From the NCBI RefSeq assembly GCF_038051925.1, contig NZ_CP150634.1:806001-870000 (forward strand): 64,000 nt of DNA, in the 5' to 3' direction. Below the pieces are notes generated by a model, which worked only from the letters and a program-made list of their open reading frames with translations, was not told the origin of the DNA and ran no database searches. Shown in pieces: positions 4,661 to 60,175 of this stretch. The position numbers and the translations under genes were made by a program. The stretch's first letter is position 1; each line of letters begins with the position of its first letter. This stretch comes from Methylotuvimicrobium sp. KM2 (GTDB lineage Bacteria > Pseudomonadota > Gammaproteobacteria > Methylococcales > Methylomonadaceae).

Positions 4661-4750
4661 CGTAGCCCGTATGCAGCGGAGCGGAATACGGGTCTGGCGT
4701 GGCGCCGAACTTCCCGGATTGCGCTATGCTCCATCCGGGCTACGCTGCTA
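4661..4750. repeat. REP-like palindrome (CGTAGCCCGTATGC family)
   Basis: The arms CGTAGCCCGTATGCAGCGGA and TCCATCCGGGCTACGCTGC fold on themselves. A near-identical copy lies at 54577-54663 and a half copy at about 35730-35765. Confidence 0.75.
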
Positions 4751-4752
4751 GA

Positions 4753-4880
4753 CGAACCGCGTAGGGTACGCTGTGCGTCCCATGGTAACCCCGCGATATT
4801 CATGTGCCAACCGAACCGCCAGGGCTCGGCTTTGGTACGCGCAGCGTACCCTACAATTTATGTAAAACGATGAGAGCTGG
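4753..4880. repeat. Dispersed palindromic repeat, copy 2 (partner at 1711)
   Basis: The motifs are the same and in the same order as at 1711-1858: GTAGGGTACGCTGTGCGT, CATGTGCCAACCGAACCGC, GTACGCGCAGCGTACCCTAC. The arms differ by compensating G/A changes. Confidence 0.7.
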
Positions 4881-8755: not shown

Positions 8756-9082
8756 CGTTCATGAAGGCCTAGTCATCGCCCCGGCAAATGAAAGTTCTCT
8801 GGTGATGGAGGGTGCGGTCACTCGCCCGACAGGACGCCGTGAATACGTCCATGTAGGCTCGACGGCGGCTGTCCCTGCCGCCGACGCCTGCCGGTCGAGC
8901 AACCGCACCCTCTCCGGAACCGGAATTACCAGAGCGGAGATTTCGCTCCTTCCCAAGCTCGGCTTGGGAAGGCAGTCTCGGAAGCTCTGCTTCCCGTGAC
9001 GGCAAGCGGAGCTTGCGAAATCGTTTCCCAAGCAGAGCTTAGGAAACAGCGAAGGTTCGTTTTGGCGAACTTTCACAGTAAA
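8756..9082. repeat. Composite repeat: junction element A1 inside TGAAAGT/ACTTTCA ends
   Basis: The outer ends are ATCGCCCCGGCAAATGAAAGT and GAACTTTCACAGTAA. Inside, from about 8808 to 8912, an outer stem (GGGTGCGGT / ACCGCACCC and CTCGCCCGACAGG / CCTGCCGGTCGAG) encloses hairpin GGACG-CGTCC and hairpin CGGCGGC-GCCGCCG. The region 8941-9060 holds AAGCTC-type palindromes. A near-identical composite lies at 39725-39966. Confidence 0.8.
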
Positions 9083-17940: not shown

Positions 17941-18114
17941 TACTCCCTTTATACTCAAAAAATGGTTAACTTTATGAAGGTATGGGGTGTGGCTAGCGAG
18001 GATGTCGGCAGCAGGGAGCTGCCGCCAAGCCCCCATGGATGGGTTTACGGCGTTCCTCGATAGACACATCCCATACCTTTTATTCTTAGACGGTTTTTTA
18101 ATCAAAAGGGAGTA
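17941..18114. mobile_element. 174-bp junction element C1 (TACTCCCTTT...AAAGGGAGTA)
   Basis: Ends TACTCCCTTT and AAAGGGAGTA. The outer stem (AAGGTATGGGGTGTGGCTAG / CTAGACACATCCCATACCTT type pairing) encloses a GGCAGC/GCTGCC hairpin and a TCCATG-containing arm. Related copies: 25710-25951 (with a nested insertion), 53258-53433 (itself nested) and a half copy at 19567-19655. Confidence 0.8.
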
Positions 18115-20554: not shown

Positions 20555-20574
20555 GGTATTCATGAGTTTTGTGC

Positions 20575-20816
20575 CCATCGTAGATCAAAAATCGGCACCG
20601 GGAGGCGTTCGAAGGATGCCGTAAACCCAGTACCCTAAATCCAGCATCTAAACTCCATAGGTATTTGGCAATGATACAAAATTCATGGCTCGTTTAGGTG
20701 CTGGGTGAATACGTTCATGTAGGCTCCTTGCCTGCTTCATGCTGTCAAAGCCTTTGCCGACACCCCTGACGCTTCCATACATTAATGCCGAAATTTGATG
20801 TGCGATAGGCATATAA
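20575..20816. mobile_element. Family B element B3 with nested junction core and element D
   Basis: CCCATCGTAGATCAAAAATCGGCACCG at the left and TGCCGAAATTTGATGTGCGATAGGCATATA at the right are the B ends. The centre holds a degraded junction core and, at about 20624-20708, a D element (TTTGGCAATGATACAAAATT centre, GGTGCTGGGTGAA end). Repeat fragments continue to about 20900. Confidence 0.7.
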
Positions 20817-22909: not shown

Positions 22910-23069
22910 TATACCTTTCGCACTTCAAATTTCGGCATTATCGCAGGAGGCCTTGGGGTGCTCGGTAAAGGCTTTGCCAGCATGGAGCTGGCATAGAGCC
23001 TACATGGACGTATTTACGGCGTCCTTTGGCGGGCACCCCAAGGCCGAATTTTCATCTACGATGGGTATA
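22910..23069. mobile_element. Family B element B2 carrying a junction core (inverted)
   Basis: TATACCTTTCGCACTTCAAATTTCGGC and the end AATTTTCATCTACGATGGGTATA are B ends in reverse. Between them TTGGGGTGCTCG / CGGGCACCCCAA forms the outer stem, GCCAGC-GCTGGC the second hairpin, and GGACGTATTTACGGCGTCC the first. No D element is nested here, so this copy shows the uninterrupted loop. Confidence 0.8.
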
Positions 23070-25709: not shown

Positions 25710-25951
25710 TACTCCCTTTTGATCGAAAAACCGTCTAAGAATAAAAGGCATGTGGTGTGTCTATCGAGGACCGCCGTTCACCCAGCACCTAAATTATCCC
25801 AGATAGTTAAGCATAGCCAATGGGCTATGGAATTTAGGTGCTGGGTAAACCCATCCATGGGGCTTGGCGGCAGCTCCCTGCTGCCGACATCCTCGCTAGC
25901 CACACCCCATACCTTCATAAAGTTAGCTAATTTTTGAGTATAAAGGGAGTA
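25710..25951. mobile_element. Element C2 interrupted by element D
   Basis: The C element is in reverse relative to 17941-18114 (TACTCCCTTTTGATC ... TTTTTGAGTATAAAGGGAGTA). At 25777-25848 a D element (TTCACCCAGCACCTAAATT ... AATTTAGGTGCTGGGTAA) interrupts the sequence that reads CCGTAAACCCATCCATGG in the empty copy. Confidence 0.85.
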
Positions 25952-32388: not shown

Positions 32389-32523
32389 CGTTCCCAACGC
32401 TCCAGCGTGGGAATGCATACCGAAGCTGAAGTGAAAGTGCTGTAGGGTGCGCATCGCGCACCTTTCCACGGTACCGAACCAAATGCAAGTTCCCCCGACC
32501 CAGGTGCGCGATGCGCACCCTAC
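32389..32523. repeat. REP-like palindromes in the aroK-aroB gap
   Basis: 32389-32425 is a CGCTCCAGCGTGGGAATGCA copy. 32442-32523 has arms GTAGGGTGCGCATCGCGCACC and GGTGCGCGATGCGCACCCTAC, repeated at 59989-60063. Near 32309-32327 CACCTAGCGATAGGTGA is the empty form of the site that carries a MITE at 1586. Confidence 0.75.
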
Positions 32524-33653: not shown

Positions 33654-33703
33654 AAAGGCTAAGGAATATGCACAAAATAACTTATATAAGTAGTAGGCTC
33701 TGG

Positions 33704-33808
33704 GGTGGTTCGGTGACTCGCTTGACAGGACGCCGTGAATACGTCCATGTAGGCTTGACGGCGGCAATCCCTGCCGCCGACACCTGTCAATCGAGCCACC
33801 GAACCACC
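33704..33808. repeat. Junction element A3 (three-stem palindrome) in the aroB-damX gap
   Basis: A 26-bp outer stem (33704-33729 with 33783-33808, 24 of 26 paired) begins GGTGGTTCGG and ends CCGAACCACC. It encloses hairpin GGACG-CGTCC (33728-33746) and hairpin CGGCGGC-GCCGCCG (33759-33779). The inner part is almost identical to the copies at about 8820 and 39790, while the outer stem differs and is still complementary. Confidence 0.85.
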
Positions 33809-33833
33809 TTCTAACCGTTGTCGAAGTTATTTC

Positions 33834-35312
33834 ATGCACGTTCCTAATCAAGCTGCGAATAGGCCGTATGGCTTGGCAAAACCGGCGATTAAATCGTTAA
33901 TTACTGCCGAGCGCGCTCAAAAGTTCGAGTTATTGATTCATCTGATAATCAATTTTAATCGTCCGTTGATCGTTAACGGCCCAACCGGTATCGGTAAGTC
34001 GACATTGTTGACGGTCTTGCGCGAGCAACGTCCGGTCGAAGGGCATTATTGTTTCATGGCCGGCGATCATCAGTTAAATTTTGCGGAGATTCAAGAACGG
34101 TTGCGCCGTTTCTTGGAGATCGAACAACCGGCTTGTAAAGGCTTTTCCCTGGATGATGCGATCGCATTGCTTGAGCAGAAAAAACTCAAGTTAATCTTAA
34201 TGATCGATAATGCCGGCGAATTGATACCTGGCTTGATTGATGCTTTATCGGAATATGCTTTGGCTAACCCGACATTAAGAGTTATTTTTTCGCTAACTCA
34301 AGACGAACTATATATCAAAAGTCGTTCTGACCGATCTGTCGAGGATTGTCATTTTATCGAGCTATTGCCGCTGTCGGAAAAACAATGCCGAGATTTTTTG
34401 CAAAATCTTTCCGGGAAGCCGGACGCGCCGATTTCGTTCAATGCGGTCAGCGATAACATGGTGGAGTATGTCTACCGCGAAACGCATGGCATTCCGGGTA
34501 AAATTATTGCTGAATTACCTCGCTTGTCCGATTTCGAGCGGTTGGGCGCGCCCGTCCGGTTTTCGATTGGGCTGTTCGCGCTTTTTGCGATCGCAGGTAT
34601 CGCCTTGGTCGGTTGGGAGGCCTTGGTTCCTGAATCCGATCATCATTTAACGGAGTCTTTGCCGAGGCCGCAGCAACAGGCCTTGTCGGTTCCGTTGCCG
34701 GTTGAAAAGTTTGCCGGTAAGCAGGCGGTAAATAACAGCATCGTTACCGATGTCGCCGAGCAACAGCCTAAGCCTAAGATGACAAACGTCGTTACGGCCC
34801 CGGTAGCGGCTCTACCAGACCGGAAAATCGAGACCACTGTGAAAAATAAGAAGATAAATGATCTCGAGGTGGTTTCTGACTCTGCCGAAAACGACAAGCT
34901 TGAGAATCCGATCGCCGATCCGAGTATAGTTAAAGCCGAACCTTTAGTGTCGGCAGTCGCAGATGAAAAGATTGAGACAAAGCCGCAGGAGACGATAGAT
35001 TCCAATCGCTCGGAAGATGATGACCGGTCTTGGTTATTTAAGCAATCCTCGGATCATTTTACTTTGCAATTAATGGTATTATCGAGCCGACAGTCGATTG
35101 TCAATGTGCTGAACAAATATCGGCACCTCAAGCAGGACTTGAAGTATCTTGAAACTCGCATCGGCGGTAAAGAGAAATTTATTTTGCTGTACGGCTCGTT
35201 TAGCAGTCATGCCGATGCCAAAAGGGCTGCCGGAAAATTGCCGGCGGAATTCAAAGGGGCTTGGGTTAGGCGTTTCGCGGTTTTACAAAACGATACCAAA
35301 AATGCAAACTAA
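33834..35312 (+). CDS. damX: DamX-like protein: AAA ATPase, membrane helix, SPOR domain
   Basis: DamX-type proteins bind septal peptidoglycan through SPOR. The 492-residue protein has an N-terminal AAA domain (about 20-235; Walker A NGPTGIGKSTLL, Walker B KLILMIDNAGEL), a single membrane helix (about 243-262), a low-complexity periplasmic linker rich in Pro, Glu and Val (about 270-395), and a C-terminal SPOR domain (about 405-485; DHFTLQLMVLSSRQSIVNV and FILLYGSFSSHADAKRAAGKLP). It follows aroB, as in Pseudomonas and enterics. The start at 33834 gives the expected N-terminal ATPase. Confidence 0.88.
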   Translation: MHVPNQAANRPYGLAKPAIKSLITAERAQKFELLIHLIINFNRPLIVNGPTGIGKSTLLTVLREQRPVEGHYCFMAGDHQLNFAEIQERLRRFLEIEQPACKGFSLDDAIALLEQKKLKLILMIDNAGELIPGLIDALSEYALANPTLRVIFSLTQDELYIKSRSDRSVEDCHFIELLPLSEKQCRDFLQNLSGKPDAPISFNAVSDNMVEYVYRETHGIPGKIIAELPRLSDFERLGAPVRFSIGLFALFAIAGIALVGWEALVPESDHHLTESLPRPQQQALSVPLPVEKFAGKQAVNNSIVTDVAEQQPKPKMTNVVTAPVAALPDRKIETTVKNKKINDLEVVSDSAENDKLENPIADPSIVKAEPLVSAVADEKIETKPQETIDSNRSEDDDRSWLFKQSSDHFTLQLMVLSSRQSIVNVLNKYRHLKQDLKYLETRIGGKEKFILLYGSFSSHADAKRAAGKLPAEFKGAWVRRFAVLQNDTKNAN

Positions 35313-37967: not shown

Positions 37968-38137
37968 TATACCCATTAGATCAAAATTCGGCACCGGGGT
38001 GTCGTCAAAGGCCAGCACCTAAATTTCAAGTCCATTAGAGTTCGGTGGCTCAATTGTCAGGTGTCGGCGGAAGGAAATCCTTATGCCGGGTACTCCGGCG
38101 CCTTCCCTAGGCGCTGCCGAAATTTGAAGTGAACGAT
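37968..38137. mobile_element. Degenerate family B element B4
   Basis: TATACCCATTAGATCAAAATTCGGCACCGGGG at the left and GCGCTGCCGAAATTTGAAGTG at the right are B ends. The inside contains CAGCACCTAAATTTC (a D fragment) and remnants of a junction core (GGTGTCGGCGGAAGGAAATCC). Confidence 0.65.
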
Positions 38138-39098: not shown

Positions 39099-39324
39099 TA
39101 ATTATTCAGCATAAGTCATATATGAGAAGGTGTCAGGTATTGATTTATAAGGCTGTCTGCAACAAAACGTTGCAGTCAGAGCATATAGGGATGTGTTCAC
39201 CCAGCACCAAAATAAGCCATGATTTTGAATCATTGCCAAAGACCTATGGAATTTAGGTGCTTGGGTTCACGCGTCCTTACAAATCAATGCCTGACACCAA
39301 CCTACCGCATGCCCTGAATAGTTA
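39099..39324. mobile_element. Element E1 carrying element D
   Basis: Ends TAATTATTCAGCATAAG and GCCCTGAATAGTTA. The outer stem GGTGTCAGGTATTGATTTAT pairs with ATCAATGCCTGACACC. Hairpin CTGCAACAAAACGTTGCAG is inside. At 39196-39267 a D element (TTCACCCAGCACC ... TTTAGGTGCTTGGGTTCA) is nested in the other hairpin loop. Confidence 0.8.
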
Positions 39325-39724: not shown

Positions 39725-39966
39725 TAACGTTCATGAAGGCCTGGTCATCGCCCCGGCAAATGAAAGTTCTCTGGTGGGGAGGGTGCGGTCACTCGCCCGA
39801 CAGGACGCCGTGAATACGTCCATGTAGGCTCGACGGCGGCTGTCCCTGCCGCCGACGCCTGTCGATCGAGCAACCGCACCCTCTCCGGAACCGGCATTGC
39901 CAGAGCGGAGTTTTGCATATCGAAAAATTAGATAATGAATCAAAATTTACGATCTTTCACAGTAAA
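39725..39966. repeat. Composite repeat with junction element A2
   Basis: Almost the same as 8756-9082: ATCGCCCCGGCAAATGAAAGT, outer stem GGGTGCGGTCACTCG / CGAGCAACCGCACCC, the two inner hairpins, and the end TTTCACAGTAA. The hairpin-2 side arm reads CCTGTCGATCGAG here against CCTGCCGGTCGAG at 8887. Confidence 0.8.
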
Positions 39967-50918: not shown

Positions 50919-51147
50919 TATACCCATCGCAAGTCAAAATTCGGCGCCTGGGTGTCTGCTAAAGGACGCCGTGAACCCCGCACCTAAATTCTATAGGTCT
51001 TTGGCAATGATTCAAAATCATGGCTTATTTAGGTGCTGGGTGAATACGTCCATGTAGGCTCTATGCCAGCTCCATGCTGGCAAAGCCTTTATCAGACACC
51101 CAGGCGCCTCCCCAGGCACTGCCGAAATTTGAAGTGCGAAAGGTATA
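50919..51147. mobile_element. Three-level nest: element B around a junction core around element D
   Basis: B ends are TATACCCATCGCAAGTC and TTTGAAGTGCGAAAGGTATA. The junction core (50949-51102) is flanked on both sides by GGCGCC (50943-50948 and 51103-51108). In the core, TGGGTGTCTG/CAGACACCCA starts the outer stem, and GCCAGC/GCTGGC is hairpin 2. Element D (50973-51044) sits in the loop of hairpin 1. 50848-50910 before it has a separate GGACGACGCG/CGCGTCGTCC palindrome. Confidence 0.85.
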
Positions 51148-52434: not shown

Positions 52435-52689
52435 CCTCATATTGTTCAAATGTCAATGGGAGGATCGTCAGCCCTTTTTCTGTCTTTTTACGCTACAATT
52501 TATGTATACCTATCGCACTTCAAATTTCGGCAATAAGGTATGGAGGCGTCGGGGTGTTTGGCAAAGGGTATATAACGATGAGTGCAAAGTGTGGCAACGA
52601 GAATCGCCGGGGATTGAAAGTTACAAACTGGAAAGGGATGTCTTCGTCGACACGTCCGTGTGTCGGATAATTAGCCGTTGGCTATGTTA
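52435..52689. other. Short gap with a worn B-element end
   Basis: CTATCGCACTTCAAATTTCGGCAATAAGG (about 52510-52538) is a family B end, followed by GGGTGTTTGGCAAAGGGTATA. No gene is seen. Confidence 0.5.
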
Positions 52690-52899
52690 TTAGATAACGG
52701 TAACTTCTTCGGCTTGTGGGCCTTTTTGACCTTGAGTCACGATAAACTGAACTTTTTGGCCTTCAGTCAGGGACTTGAAACCGGAACCCGCAATGTTGCG
52801 GAAATGAACGAAAACGTCAGGACCTTGGCCTTGCTCGATGAAGCCGAAGCCTTTGTCTGCGTTGAACCATTTAACTGTGCCTGTTGTAGTAGTAGACAT
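52690..52899 (-). CDS. CspA-family cold-shock protein
   Basis: The 69-residue protein is one cold-shock domain that binds single-stranded RNA and DNA. RNP1 is KGFGFI and RNP2 is VFVHF. The ATG at 52899 is used because TTTTGAGT with TAAGG upstream gives a normal site and protein. Upstream (about 52900-53050) is a gene-free, AT-rich stretch that could be the long leader usual for csp genes. Whether it is cold- or salt-induced is unknown. Confidence 0.93.
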
Positions 52900-53189
52900 A
52901 CTCAAAACCTTAAAAATAAAAATTAAATCAATTTAGTCCAAAATCGGACCGTCTAGCTAAGAAATAGTGAAATCTCTTAATGGCAGAACGTAACGAGGAT
53001 CTACAGAAACAGAGCACTACAGAAAAAACGCCGTAACTAAAACATCAAAGACATATCGAATTTCAAGCTAAGATTATTCTATGCCTTATTTCCTCAAAGT
53101 CAACTGACAAAACAGCTACCGTCTAGAATCAATCGCCCTATCAGAGTTGGTGTTTTTTAATAGTCACTGAATTAACAAGAAAATTTCGT

Positions 53190-53590
53190 AACTATTCAGC
53201 GCATGTGGTTGGTTTGGCGTCGGGTATTGATTTCTAAGGACGCGTGAACCCAGCACCTACTCCTTTTATACTCAAAAATTAGCTAACTTTGTGAAGGTAT
53301 GGGGTGTGGCTAGCGAGGATGTCGGCAGCAGGGATTGCTGCCGTCAAGCCCCCATGGATAGGTTCACGGCGGTCCTCGATAGACACATCCCATACCTTTT
53401 ATTCTTAGTCGGTTGTTCAATCAAAAGGGAGTAAATAACCCAAAATTGTTTATCATAGCAAATAGATTATGGTATTTAGGTGCTGGGTGAATACGTCCCT
53501 GTAAGCTCTGACTGCAACGTCCTGTTGCAGACAGCCTTATAAATCAATGCCCGACACCTTCTTATATATGACTTATGCTGAATAATTAAA
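53190..53590. mobile_element. Three-level nest: element E around D around C
   Basis: E ends TAACTATTCAGCGCATG and GACTTATGCTGAATAATTA. The D element (about 53244-53492) is split after GCACC by a complete C element (53258-53433), with TA on each side of C. The D remainder AAATAACCCAAAATTG to GGTGCTGGGTGAA follows, then the E hairpin CTGCAACGTCCTGTTGCAG. The whole block ends 53 bp before the dciA-like gene. Confidence 0.85.
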
Positions 53591-54122: not shown

Positions 54123-55083
54123 TATCTATCCTAAAAAGAGCAGTGCATGAAGGGGCTACAACACTTTTACCGGCTTGGTGAAGCCTTCAAGCTACCCTTC
54201 ACCCTTCGACGGGGCTCTCCTGAGCGCGGCCGAAGGGCCTAGGGCGAGCCGTAGTTTGAGACTCTCAACTGTTCTTTTTAGGTTTATCCTGAATTCGGCA
54301 GTTTAACCATGAAGCACATGAAGTTCATGAAGGATTCCAAGAACTTACCAAATCCTTCTCGCTAACCTTTTTGGTGAGCGAAAGTTCTATACAAACGCGT
54401 AATAAGCTATTGAATTAACTTCCTATTCTTCATGATCTTCATGGTGAAATGCTTTTTCTAGGTTTATACCTTTCGCACTTCAAATCTTGGTAGTGCCCGA
54501 GGAGGTAGTACCCCAAACGCATCGAGCTAAAAACGGTCACACCATATCTGCTCTTTTCCAAATTGCTATTAAAGCACGTAGCCCGTATGCAGCGTAGCGG
54601 AATACGGGAATGGCGTGGCTCCGAACTTCCCGGATTGCGCTACGCTCCATCCGGGCTACGCTGTTTAGACTCGCCGAAAGCAGTCGGTAGCGATTTAGCA
54701 ACGGGGATATCTATGCTTAGGATTTGGTCGTAAATAACCCTCAACAAAGCCCATAGTTCCAGGTCGTTATTTATCAAGAAATCCTTAGCTTGATTCGTAT
54801 GGGCCGTACCCCCGGTGCCGAATTTTGATATCCGGTGGGTATATACTTCGATAACTTCAACTATTAACGTGAACATAGCCAAAATCGTGGCGTCGATTGC
54901 GCAACTTTTTTCATGCCCGTTCTTTATTGATTTCAGTTATAATCGCTCATTTTTTATATCGTCGATCTTAGCAATCGGCGCTTTTGTTTAGACAAAGTGT
55001 AAGTGGCTTTAGAGTCAAGGCCTTAAATACGGACAAAACGATTAAGGAGACGAATCGTTTTTTAATTATTCCCTGGAGCAACC
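54123..55083. other. Repeat-filled gap between dciA-like gene and glyQ
   Basis: No gene. 54135-54290 has a TTCGACGGGGCTCTCCTGAGCG unit with GAGCAGT/ACTGTTC arms. 54297-54470 is repeat L copy 2 (inverse of 39967-40133). 54469-54520 is a B end. 54577-54663 is the CGTAGCCCGTATGCAGCGTA palindrome. 54815-54843 is another B end (GTGCCGAATTTTGATATCCG). The last 200 bp hold the glyQ leader. Confidence 0.65.
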
Positions 55084-59353: not shown

Positions 59354-60175
59354 GCGGTCTAAGTATTCCGTTCAACCTATAAGCATTTTGTCCACGAAAC
59401 GCACGAAAATATTCAAATGGTTACCTGATTAGCAAGATGCTTCAGCTTACCGAAGCCAAGTGTCCGAGCAGAGGCTAGTCGTAGTCGCAAAAACTAAAAT
59501 ATGCTGTTACCCAAGCTCCAGCTTGGGTAACCTGTTCGGGAAGCTCTAGCTTCCCGACAATCAAGAAAGATTTAACGAGCGAGCGAATCGGGATTGATTG
59601 AGAATGTGCGGAGGTTGTGTCGGTCACAGGAAGCTCTTGCCCTGAGCGCAGCCGAAGGGGGAGCTTCCGGGGTGTCTTTCCCAAGCTGGAGCTTGGGAAA
59701 GAGCGTAAGTTGCTCTCCAATGAATGATTTAAGAGGTTTTTGTAACCGAATGGTTACTACAAAGGCTCTGTATGCGGTAAAAGTTGAAAACTCCCACCGC
59801 GACCGGAAACACTTAAAAATTTTCTGCGGGACGGGTTATTTAACCCGTCCCCAACGTTTCGGTTTGGCCTAAATATTTCGGCTGACTTCGGCCAAAGTCA
59901 AAACGTTTAGGACGGGGTTGCAAACCCCGTCCTGCTAGGGGGCATGGCGGAATGACGAGGTTCCCTATAACTTAATGGCAGCAAGATGTAGGGCGCGCAT
60001 CGCGCACCTGGGTCGGGCTTATGTCGGTTAGGCACCGTCGAAAGGTGCGCGATGCGCACCCTACGACGCTCAAACTATCTTGAAAATTATTTTTGACCAT
60101 ATCTTAAGTGAAAATAGGCTTTATCAAACGGCTGGCGACTAGTCATTCGACAATCAATCAAAGCATTCATACATA
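59354..60175. other. Repeat-filled gap between lipoprotein and lnt
   Basis: No gene. 59500-59705 is the CCCAAGCTCCAGCTTGGG / GATTGAGAATGTGCGGAGGT unit. 59830-59936 is the inverse of the block inside 37119-37227 (GACGGGTTATTTAACCCGTC ... GACGGGGTTGCAAACCCCGTC). 59989-60063 repeats the GCGCGCATCGCGCACC palindrome of 32442-32523. The remainder may contain the lnt promoter. Confidence 0.7.

Follow-up and report, generated by a model that had tools for sequence, protein, structure and literature searches.

A covarying two-hairpin module found across Gammaproteobacteria and carried by MITEs in Methylotuvimicrobium: a candidate decoy or landing site for CsrA/RsmA

Intergenic elements of Methylotuvimicrobium sp. 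KM2 share a folded module, a long outer stem (P1) around two hairpins (H1 and H2), which we examined in a window of 64,000 nucleotides (the whole stretch of DNA analysed, positions 806,001 to 870,000 of contig NZ_CP150634.1), in the rest of the genome and in other genomes. The folded shape is kept while the sequence drifts, and its covariation lies above the phylogenetic null. Besides the structure and the covariation, we observed directly a favoured strand, a match between the loops and a known type of protein-binding site, and mobility as a MITE for one family. Our preferred reading, to which we give about an even chance, is that the module, folded on the reverse complement of the strand that reads GTGAA, is a MITE-borne candidate decoy or landing site for CsrA/RsmA.

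Structure and covariation

Read on the GTGAA strand, the core is CGCC-GTGAA-NNN-RTCCNT-NNN-GGCTYG, followed first by a second hairpin that has a TCC loop and after it by A-C-R, and P1 runs around all of it; the cross-species form of H1 is GCC-(GTGAA bulge)-NNN-(RTCCNT)-NNN-GGC. RNAalifold applied to 40 copies recovers P1, H2 and H1, with changes on both sides in 25 of 29 pairs. In this 40-copy alignment (A1) the structure has a covariation score of 0.791, compared with 0.207 for shuffles and 0.115-0.149 for the structure slid along the alignment. Between genera the bases of loops, bulge and junctions hardly vary, and the stems covary. A class-wide search that left the H1 stem free shows a fully complementary stem in 109 of 113 among the matches listed, in the forms TAC/GTA, CCC/GGG, TCC/GGA, ACC/GGT, GAC/GTC and TAT/ATA; in the collected copies the H1 stem is fully paired in 220 of 224 rows, which contain repeats, and in 212 of the 216 distinct ones. 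Binomial values on such element counts overstate significance, since elements share descent.

In an R-scape-style test on 105 sequences (G statistic with average-product correction, against a null in which parsimony changes are put at random on a FastTree tree), 23 of 28 pairs covary beyond the null at E<0.05, plus one non-pair. The covarying pairs comprise two of three in H1 (the third is invariant), none of three at the nearly invariant H1 base, five of six in H2 and 16 of 16 in P1, the last two figures being partly built in because the P1 and H2 registers were picked by complementarity. Cleaner tests are provided by H1 and by the Y-R pair at the base of H2 (columns 16-44). Three rows of the set come from Methylotuvimicrobium and five from methanotroph loci or loci with the same MITEs. 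An earlier note, made from the window alone, had proposed that compensating changes preserve the shape as sequence drifts; both the score and the tree-based test bear this out, and the lack of significant covariation that the note had named as the contrary outcome did not materialise.

The same note had described hairpin 1 as a GGACG/CGTCC pairing. Single-sequence folding of 33704-33808 and of 22949-23045 does select this hairpin; across species it competes with the H1 given above, and it could form in 40 of 72 copies from the genus and in 19 of the 105 sequences of the cross-genus set.

Copies in the window and the unit that moves

The copy at 33704-33808 is the inside of a terminal inverted repeat (TIR) MITE that moved with a 4-bp target duplication. 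In all four same-genus genomes that cover the site (G010, G037, G060 and G078) the flanks are contiguous and the element is absent, and the extra DNA here amounts to 181 bp plus a duplicated CTAA (left 33659-33662, right 33844-33847, seen as a 4-bp overlap of the flanks in the four relatives). The mobile unit is therefore 33663-33843, a member of family A2, rather than the shorter extent of 33704-33808 that the earlier note had given. It is bounded by imperfect TIRs of about 21 bp (the terminal arms 33662-33683 and 33824-33845 are 82% complementary), and with its TIRs and target duplication, non-coding and under about 200 bp, it has the hallmarks of a MITE. Its folded module occupies 33716-33796 on the minus strand, the inferred folded strand (model R1, 84.4 bits, E 1.6e-19). 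Among 27 DDE_Tnp_1 and five Y1 loci there is no autonomous partner with ends matching those of 33663-33843, and DDE_3 likewise gave no match.

Forty copies from other records (two of methanotroph genera, about ten Gammaproteobacteria MAGs) were used to build a covariance model, which lists ten places in the window at E<5, of which six are intact (74-84 bits, E 1e-16 to 1e-19), three interrupted and one degenerate. Besides the copy above, the intact modules are two of family A on the minus strand (8820-8900, 81.7 bits; 39791-39871, 81.6 bits) and three on the plus strand within MITEs whose ends can be read in the sequence: 17989-18067 (81.6 bits) in a family C element at 17941-18114 (TACTCCCTTT...AAAGGGAGTA), 53306-53386 (77.6 bits) in a second C element at 53258-53433, itself within a family E copy, and 22958-23036 (74.1 bits) in a family B element at 22910-23069 (TATACC...GGTATA). 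The interrupted modules, all on the minus strand, have H1 split by a palindrome that we call N: 51022-51097 of family B (35.5 bits; N at about 50976-51044, with GTGAA on both sides), 25836-25893 in a C copy at about 25710-25951 (30.3 bits), and 53474-53544 in the E copy at about 53190-53590 (26.8 bits), where the C element is nested in N. A further E copy at 39099-39324 on the plus strand, with H1 split by a long insert that holds the N word, was found by eye and by core search; it is absent from the covariance-model list, and its core is recognised only when up to five mismatches are allowed. The degenerate place, 20696-20753 on the minus strand (15.1 bits, E 0.16), belongs to a B copy at about 20560-20816 and is missing from the earlier note's list. 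The copies that the note did list, said to follow one plan of an outer stem and two hairpins, are indeed there: inverted repeats have their arms at 8808-8912, 33704-33808, 39776-39886, 17977-18079, 22949-23045, 53294-53398, 50943-51108 and 39129-39298, and the six intact modules were recovered by the model made from copies of other records.

The window also contains separate REP-like inverted repeats at 32442-32523, 59988-60064 and 4761-4854, all of which begin GTAGGG, and at 4661-4744 and 54570-54667. At 52645-53060 on the minus strand there is a full-length match to the Rfam cspA thermoregulator (44.1 bits, E 4.9e-8), below the gathering score of 78.

Abundance and distribution

The reach of the module is wider than the earlier note had stated. 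In the genome (5.0 Mb, one contig), 439 places match the 21-base core word with at most three mismatches and none matches the reversed word; in a 780-kb sample of it, the covariance model finds 52 places at E<0.01. Over a collection of genome contigs, a degenerate pattern matches at least 118 stretches. Matches are present in 29 of the 151 genomes of the GTDB family and in all six of the genus, the latter with 118-648 places each. Class-wide, with the H1 stem free, they occur in 21 of 369 genomes and 18 of 271 genera, and a control pattern in none (the scans of the contig collection and of the family fixed Y, M, K and R, allowing all combinations; the class-wide scan alone freed the stem). The counts of 439 against 0 in the genome and 21/369 against 0 in the class exclude chance, which the earlier note had named as a possible source of the common GGACG core. 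The distribution of the core across Gammaproteobacteria is patchy: among the matches listed, the named taxa are gammaproteobacterial (Stenotrophomonas, Xanthomonas, Marinobacter, Sodalis, Shewanella, Rheinheimera, Halopseudomonas and others), and two matches are assigned merely to Pseudomonadota or Proteobacteria. BLAST searches of plasmids (two queries), phages (one) and E. coli (one), run with 56-60 nt, the low-complexity filter on and no positive control, gave no match.

Sampled copies lie outside long open reading frames in 66 of 67 cases. Relative to gene strand, copies in the genome sample show no preference (39 versus 40 downstream, 26 versus 27 upstream), and a cis-acting mRNA element in fixed sense was rejected on this ground; a crude count had suggested a gene-sense bias (39 versus 17 near gene 3' ends) that the finer count did not uphold. 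Core orientation is 220/219 genome-wide and 39/20 in a sample of 40 stretches; it does not flip where the GC skew changes, and a replichore-oriented signal was rejected. Copies near stretch ends, and one locus that overlaps the window (L059), were left out before counting.

The folded strand and its loops

If just one of the strands is functional when folded, that strand should put up with wobble and purine mismatches. At 16 positions of P1 in 220 elements (18 of 238 elements with a poor P1 being left out), mismatches read on the GTGAA strand are more often A.C than G.T (208 versus 43), C.T than G.A (137 versus 34) and C.C than G.G (38 versus 5). The first asymmetry is found both in other genera (99 versus 32) and in Methylotuvimicrobium (109 versus 11), and mismatches in H2 agree on smaller numbers (16 versus 7; 22 versus 8). 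These one-sided mismatches point to folding on the strand complementary to GTGAA. All three window copies that were folded have a lower energy on the inferred strand than on the opposite one (-68.2 versus -61.7, -65.6 versus -55.4 and -58.8 versus -55.9 kcal/mol), with similar z-scores on both strands. The asymmetry fits RNA and single-stranded DNA hairpins equally.

On the inferred strand, the loops of both hairpins read ANGGAY and are closed by C-G. According to passages of PMC4005645, the high-affinity site for CsrA/RsmE consists of a hexaloop ANGGAX seated directly on a C-G-closed stem, with N and X free, and the pentaloops AGGGA and AAGGA bind well too; families B and C have H2 pentaloops ATGGA and AGGGA. 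The H1 form UAC-ANGGAY-GUA resembles the E. coli CsrA SELEX consensus RUACARGGAUGU, described in part of PMC7652899 as having mainly six-base loops on short stems. H2 played no part in searching, so counts of its loops are independent of the search pattern. In other genera, a loop GGA is present in 101 of 102 distinct H2 regions, and A.GGA in 88; in Methylotuvimicrobium the figure is 27 of 32 for each, and at methanotroph loci or loci with the same MITEs it is six of six for GGA and five of six for A.GGA (34 elements with P1 below 16/22, eight long regions, six without a hairpin and 50 repeats are left out). Control hairpins at the same loci contain GGA in 92 of 1581 cases per strand, and A.GGA in 16 and 29 of 1581. 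In its sequence, then, the module has what is expected of a CsrA/RsmA-binding RNA, namely a loop GGA and ANGGAX on a C-G-closed stem.

On the functional strand the proposed order would be P1, H2 (GGA loop), CRAGCC, H1 (GGA loop, UUCAC bulge) and P1'. As RNA, the module would present two putative high-affinity-type CsrA/RsmA sites about 20 nt apart, a spacing at which one CsrA dimer could occupy both; the element would then act as a decoy or landing site. In this genome the module travels as cargo in the interior of several TIR MITE families. CsrA/RsmA is the most likely ligand, and we infer from sequence transcription of this strand, CsrA binding and an effect of that binding.

Some observations sit less well with binding by CsrA. 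The GGA of H1 is paired in the competing GGACG/CGUCC hairpin, the minimum-energy structure of two of the three folded window copies, and in window copies this hairpin can, on the predicted folds, hide one putative CsrA site. The conserved UUCAC bulge has no explanation from CsrA. The absence of gene-strand bias also counts against this reading, and CsrA itself is near-universal in the family, being present in 134 of 151 genomes; as a discriminator it was ruled out, since its presence fails to discriminate.

Mobility and a possible role as single-stranded DNA

The core sits mid-element in six or more MITE families (A, A2, B, C, E, F and G), whose ends are of at least four dissimilar types: those of A2, G and perhaps F begin TAAGGA...AAATAAC-like, and those of B, C and E are each different. 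The outer stems do differ between copies, as the earlier note had remarked, though part of this variation lies between MITE families rather than in drift within one. A nested B copy reads, by eye against the target repeat, as a TA duplication, unlike the CTAA of the copy at 33663-33843, so more than one transposition system seems to be involved. One core copy (L065, near 2343108 of G000) has another outer stem (CCAGAAGACGCC...CACACTTCTTCC) and perhaps belongs to a further family.

TIR words are found at 8 of 27 DDE_Tnp_1 loci, yet none of those loci provides a partner transposase. One of the transposase loci (L248) is a 1432-bp IS between B ends, inserted in nested MITEs and identical in L249 and L251. 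Beside the copies at 145 loci no transposase recurs; a dedicated linked gene was also sought there and rejected, the yield being three protein clusters in 4-6 loci, with EAL/GGDEF, ABC transporter and aldolase/SDR proteins as their longest members. The genome has five Y1_Tnp genes, and a core copy (at most four mismatches) lies within 1.5 kb of none of them. The earlier note had suggested a transposase that reads structure, and this is unsupported as it was put: the unit is a TIR MITE with a 4-bp duplication, no transposase recurs in 145 loci, and the five Y1 genes have no copy within 1.5 kb.

A structure-read role at the DNA level is the main rival to the CsrA reading. The module would act as folded single-stranded DNA: the minus strand would extrude at replication, its stems, bulge and loops would be read by a recombinase or would help the element to persist or spread, and the GGA loops would contact a partner other than CsrA. 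We consider this possible, if clearly less probable than a CsrA site. The strand asymmetry suits DNA hairpins as well as RNA, and the lack of gene-strand bias agrees with it. At two loci (L098 and L120) adjacent copies have a common core and unrelated P1 stems, and at L120:28-176 both arms of a 48-bp P1 carry, in mirror form, a 17-bp tandem repeat, which suggests a fold-back or template-switch origin; together, these features suggest arm correction or exchange of cores at the DNA level. Among 23 multi-copy loci, oppositely oriented copies within 450 bp of one another occur in 16, and in 15 of the 16 the two converge. Other palindromes have been inserted into the loops of H1 and H2, both here and in Stenotrophomonas, and target duplications of the Yersinia element YPAL, 3-26 bp long, are found at dyad symmetry (cited in PMC2229807). 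P1 exchange, converging pairs and loop insertions thus keep a single-stranded DNA role in play. Against it, the copy at 33663-33843 transposed like any TIR element, duplicating 4 bp, the copies have no recurrent gene next to them, and a CsrA-like loop pattern is not what this explanation predicts.

Two such palindromes, N and D, are found in this genus. Palindrome N (CCCAGCACCTAAATT...AATTTAGGTGCTGGGTGAA) interrupts hairpin 1 on the 3' side of GTGAA and is flanked by that word left and right; it looks like a site-specific insertion or a constant 5-bp duplication; in the window it is found at 25782-25844, 50976-51044, 39099-39324 and 53190-53590, and also at 38012-38025. Module D, of the type GCCATGGATGGC-GTGAATG-CGATTTTGCAGGAGCAAAAATCG, is a two-hairpin palindrome with GGA in both loops that lies in or beside hairpin 2 (L037, L054, L056, L058 and others). 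In 67 sampled cores, N is inserted at GTGAA in 24, and D lies within about 110 nt of seven.

In copies from Stenotrophomonas-type genomes (L308 and L311), unrelated palindromes lie inside the loops of hairpins 1 and 2, like N and D here. At one Stenotrophomonas site (L285-L314) P1, H1 and H2 all vary by genome between constant flanks, as if exchanged by conversion. This site is represented by 30 loci from 81 genomes, 29 of them with both anchors; the element is present in 20 (12 by pattern, eight by eye), and nine lack it wholly or partly, several of these resembling deletions. We also considered P1 as a pre-existing target hairpin and rejected the idea, as a P1-only hairpin is seen in none of the nine element-lacking loci.

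Known relatives

The module is best filed with the TwoAYGGAY / YPAL / Ysr224 group, as a widespread MITE-borne variant. YPAL/RU-2 (168 bp, Yersinia) is likewise a mobile intergenic repeat, and RU-2, in the Y. pestis sequence printed in PMC2759123, holds the core and both TCC/GGA loops by eye; YPAL ends are unlike the ends here, and next to its reported target duplications of 3-26 bp the one insertion examined here duplicated 4 bp. TwoAYGGAY (RF01731, clan CL00106) has the same outer stem around two AYGGAY-loop hairpins on one strand, and full-length matches to it on the inferred strand cover L098 (41.0 bits), L120 and five G423 copies on cores. Its gathering score of 43 is reached in none of 14 genomes (best 41.8 bits), the window has no match to it at E<=1, and among the six hits scored in G084 and G239, neither of two loci inspected (L276 and L277) has a core by the strict pattern. 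Our description of the conserved UUCAC bulge, of the CRAGCC linker and of MITE carriage comes from the copies here, and likeness to TwoAYGGAY is judged by model match, not by its seed. Gardner and Eldai predicted CsrA binding by TwoAYGGAY (in a portion of PMC4333381). CsrA-sequestering sRNAs of the CsrB/RsmY/RsmZ type also have GGA motifs in hairpin loops, generally paired; those are dedicated sRNAs, whereas here a putative two-site module is present in hundreds of copies in mobile elements. In the passages of the literature that we examined, there is no statement joining YPAL, Ysr224 and TwoAYGGAY, nor one of CsrA sites carried by MITEs.

The Yersinia sRNA Ysr224 (RF02770) shares the core, with a Sodalis copy (L136) scoring 82.9 bits, above the threshold of 70, and window copies scoring 27-29 bits, below it. 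Its Rfam model is on the GTGAA strand, opposite to the one inferred here, which counts against the CsrA reading and raises the alternative of an sRNA from the GTGAA strand that would act through base pairing. Ysr224 is among the most often annotated sRNAs (an excerpt of PMC9029176), and several of its copies are transcribed in Y. ruckeri (an excerpt of PMC12112432), so that expression in Yersinia, as far as these excerpts go, speaks for this alternative. We nevertheless think it improbable: mismatches in P1 and H2 favour the other strand, and conservation lies in the loops rather than the stems.

Slightly more improbable still is that these are ordinary drifting MITE palindromes, with template-switch correction keeping the arms complementary and the module unselected. 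In favour, P1 is freely variable and near-perfect, L120 has its mirrored tandem repeat, and constraint on the core of each copy is unclear. In families B, G and A2 (28, five and six copies, chosen blind to the core, with 2 of 30 B copies dropped), singletons number 51 per 166 sites in the core, 85 per 221 in P1 plus spacers and 31 per 132 in the TIRs. Singletons are thus not clearly rarer in the core than in P1 plus spacers in these families, and conservation seems to act on spreading lineages; this tells against the CsrA reading as well. A diversity comparison in B copies (core 0.024, P1 about 0.2) was discarded, some copies having been chosen by exact core match. However, drift does not account for loop, bulge and junction bases that are near-invariant across genera while the stems covary, and arm correction leaves both the strand asymmetry and the GGA loops unexplained. 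Of the two suggestions in the earlier note, the 'selected RNA' fares better: one strand is favoured and the loops match CsrA/RsmE sites.

A GTAG-type REP/BIME mobilised by RAYT can be dismissed as very improbable: like the module, these are abundant intergenic palindromes, often in inverted pairs (part of PMC3733652), the TAC/GTA forms of H1 hold GTAG before hairpin 2 and five Y1_Tnp genes are present, but the module has three stems and TIR bounds, its GTAG tag is not conserved (TAC/GTA in 106 of 224 rows, the rest differing), and the Y1 genes without a nearby core rule this identity out.

Meaning for the biology of Gammaproteobacteria

YPAL/RU-2, Ysr224 and TwoAYGGAY, filed separately until now, can be united as a single folded module for which a strand is specified and a ligand can be tested. 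We tentatively suggest, as a broader proposal that we hold rather unlikely in its full form, a class-wide hitchhiker: a two-site CsrA/RsmA decoy would have been taken up repeatedly by MITEs of different transposition systems, hundreds of mobile CsrA sites would titrate or re-route a global regulator, and the module, through its hairpin loops, would also serve as a landing pad for other palindromes. If CsrA does bind, transposable elements would be disseminating, among Gammaproteobacteria, binding sites of a global regulator that acts after transcription, and this would bear on the high annotation frequency of Ysr224 and on the evolution of Csr/Rsm networks.
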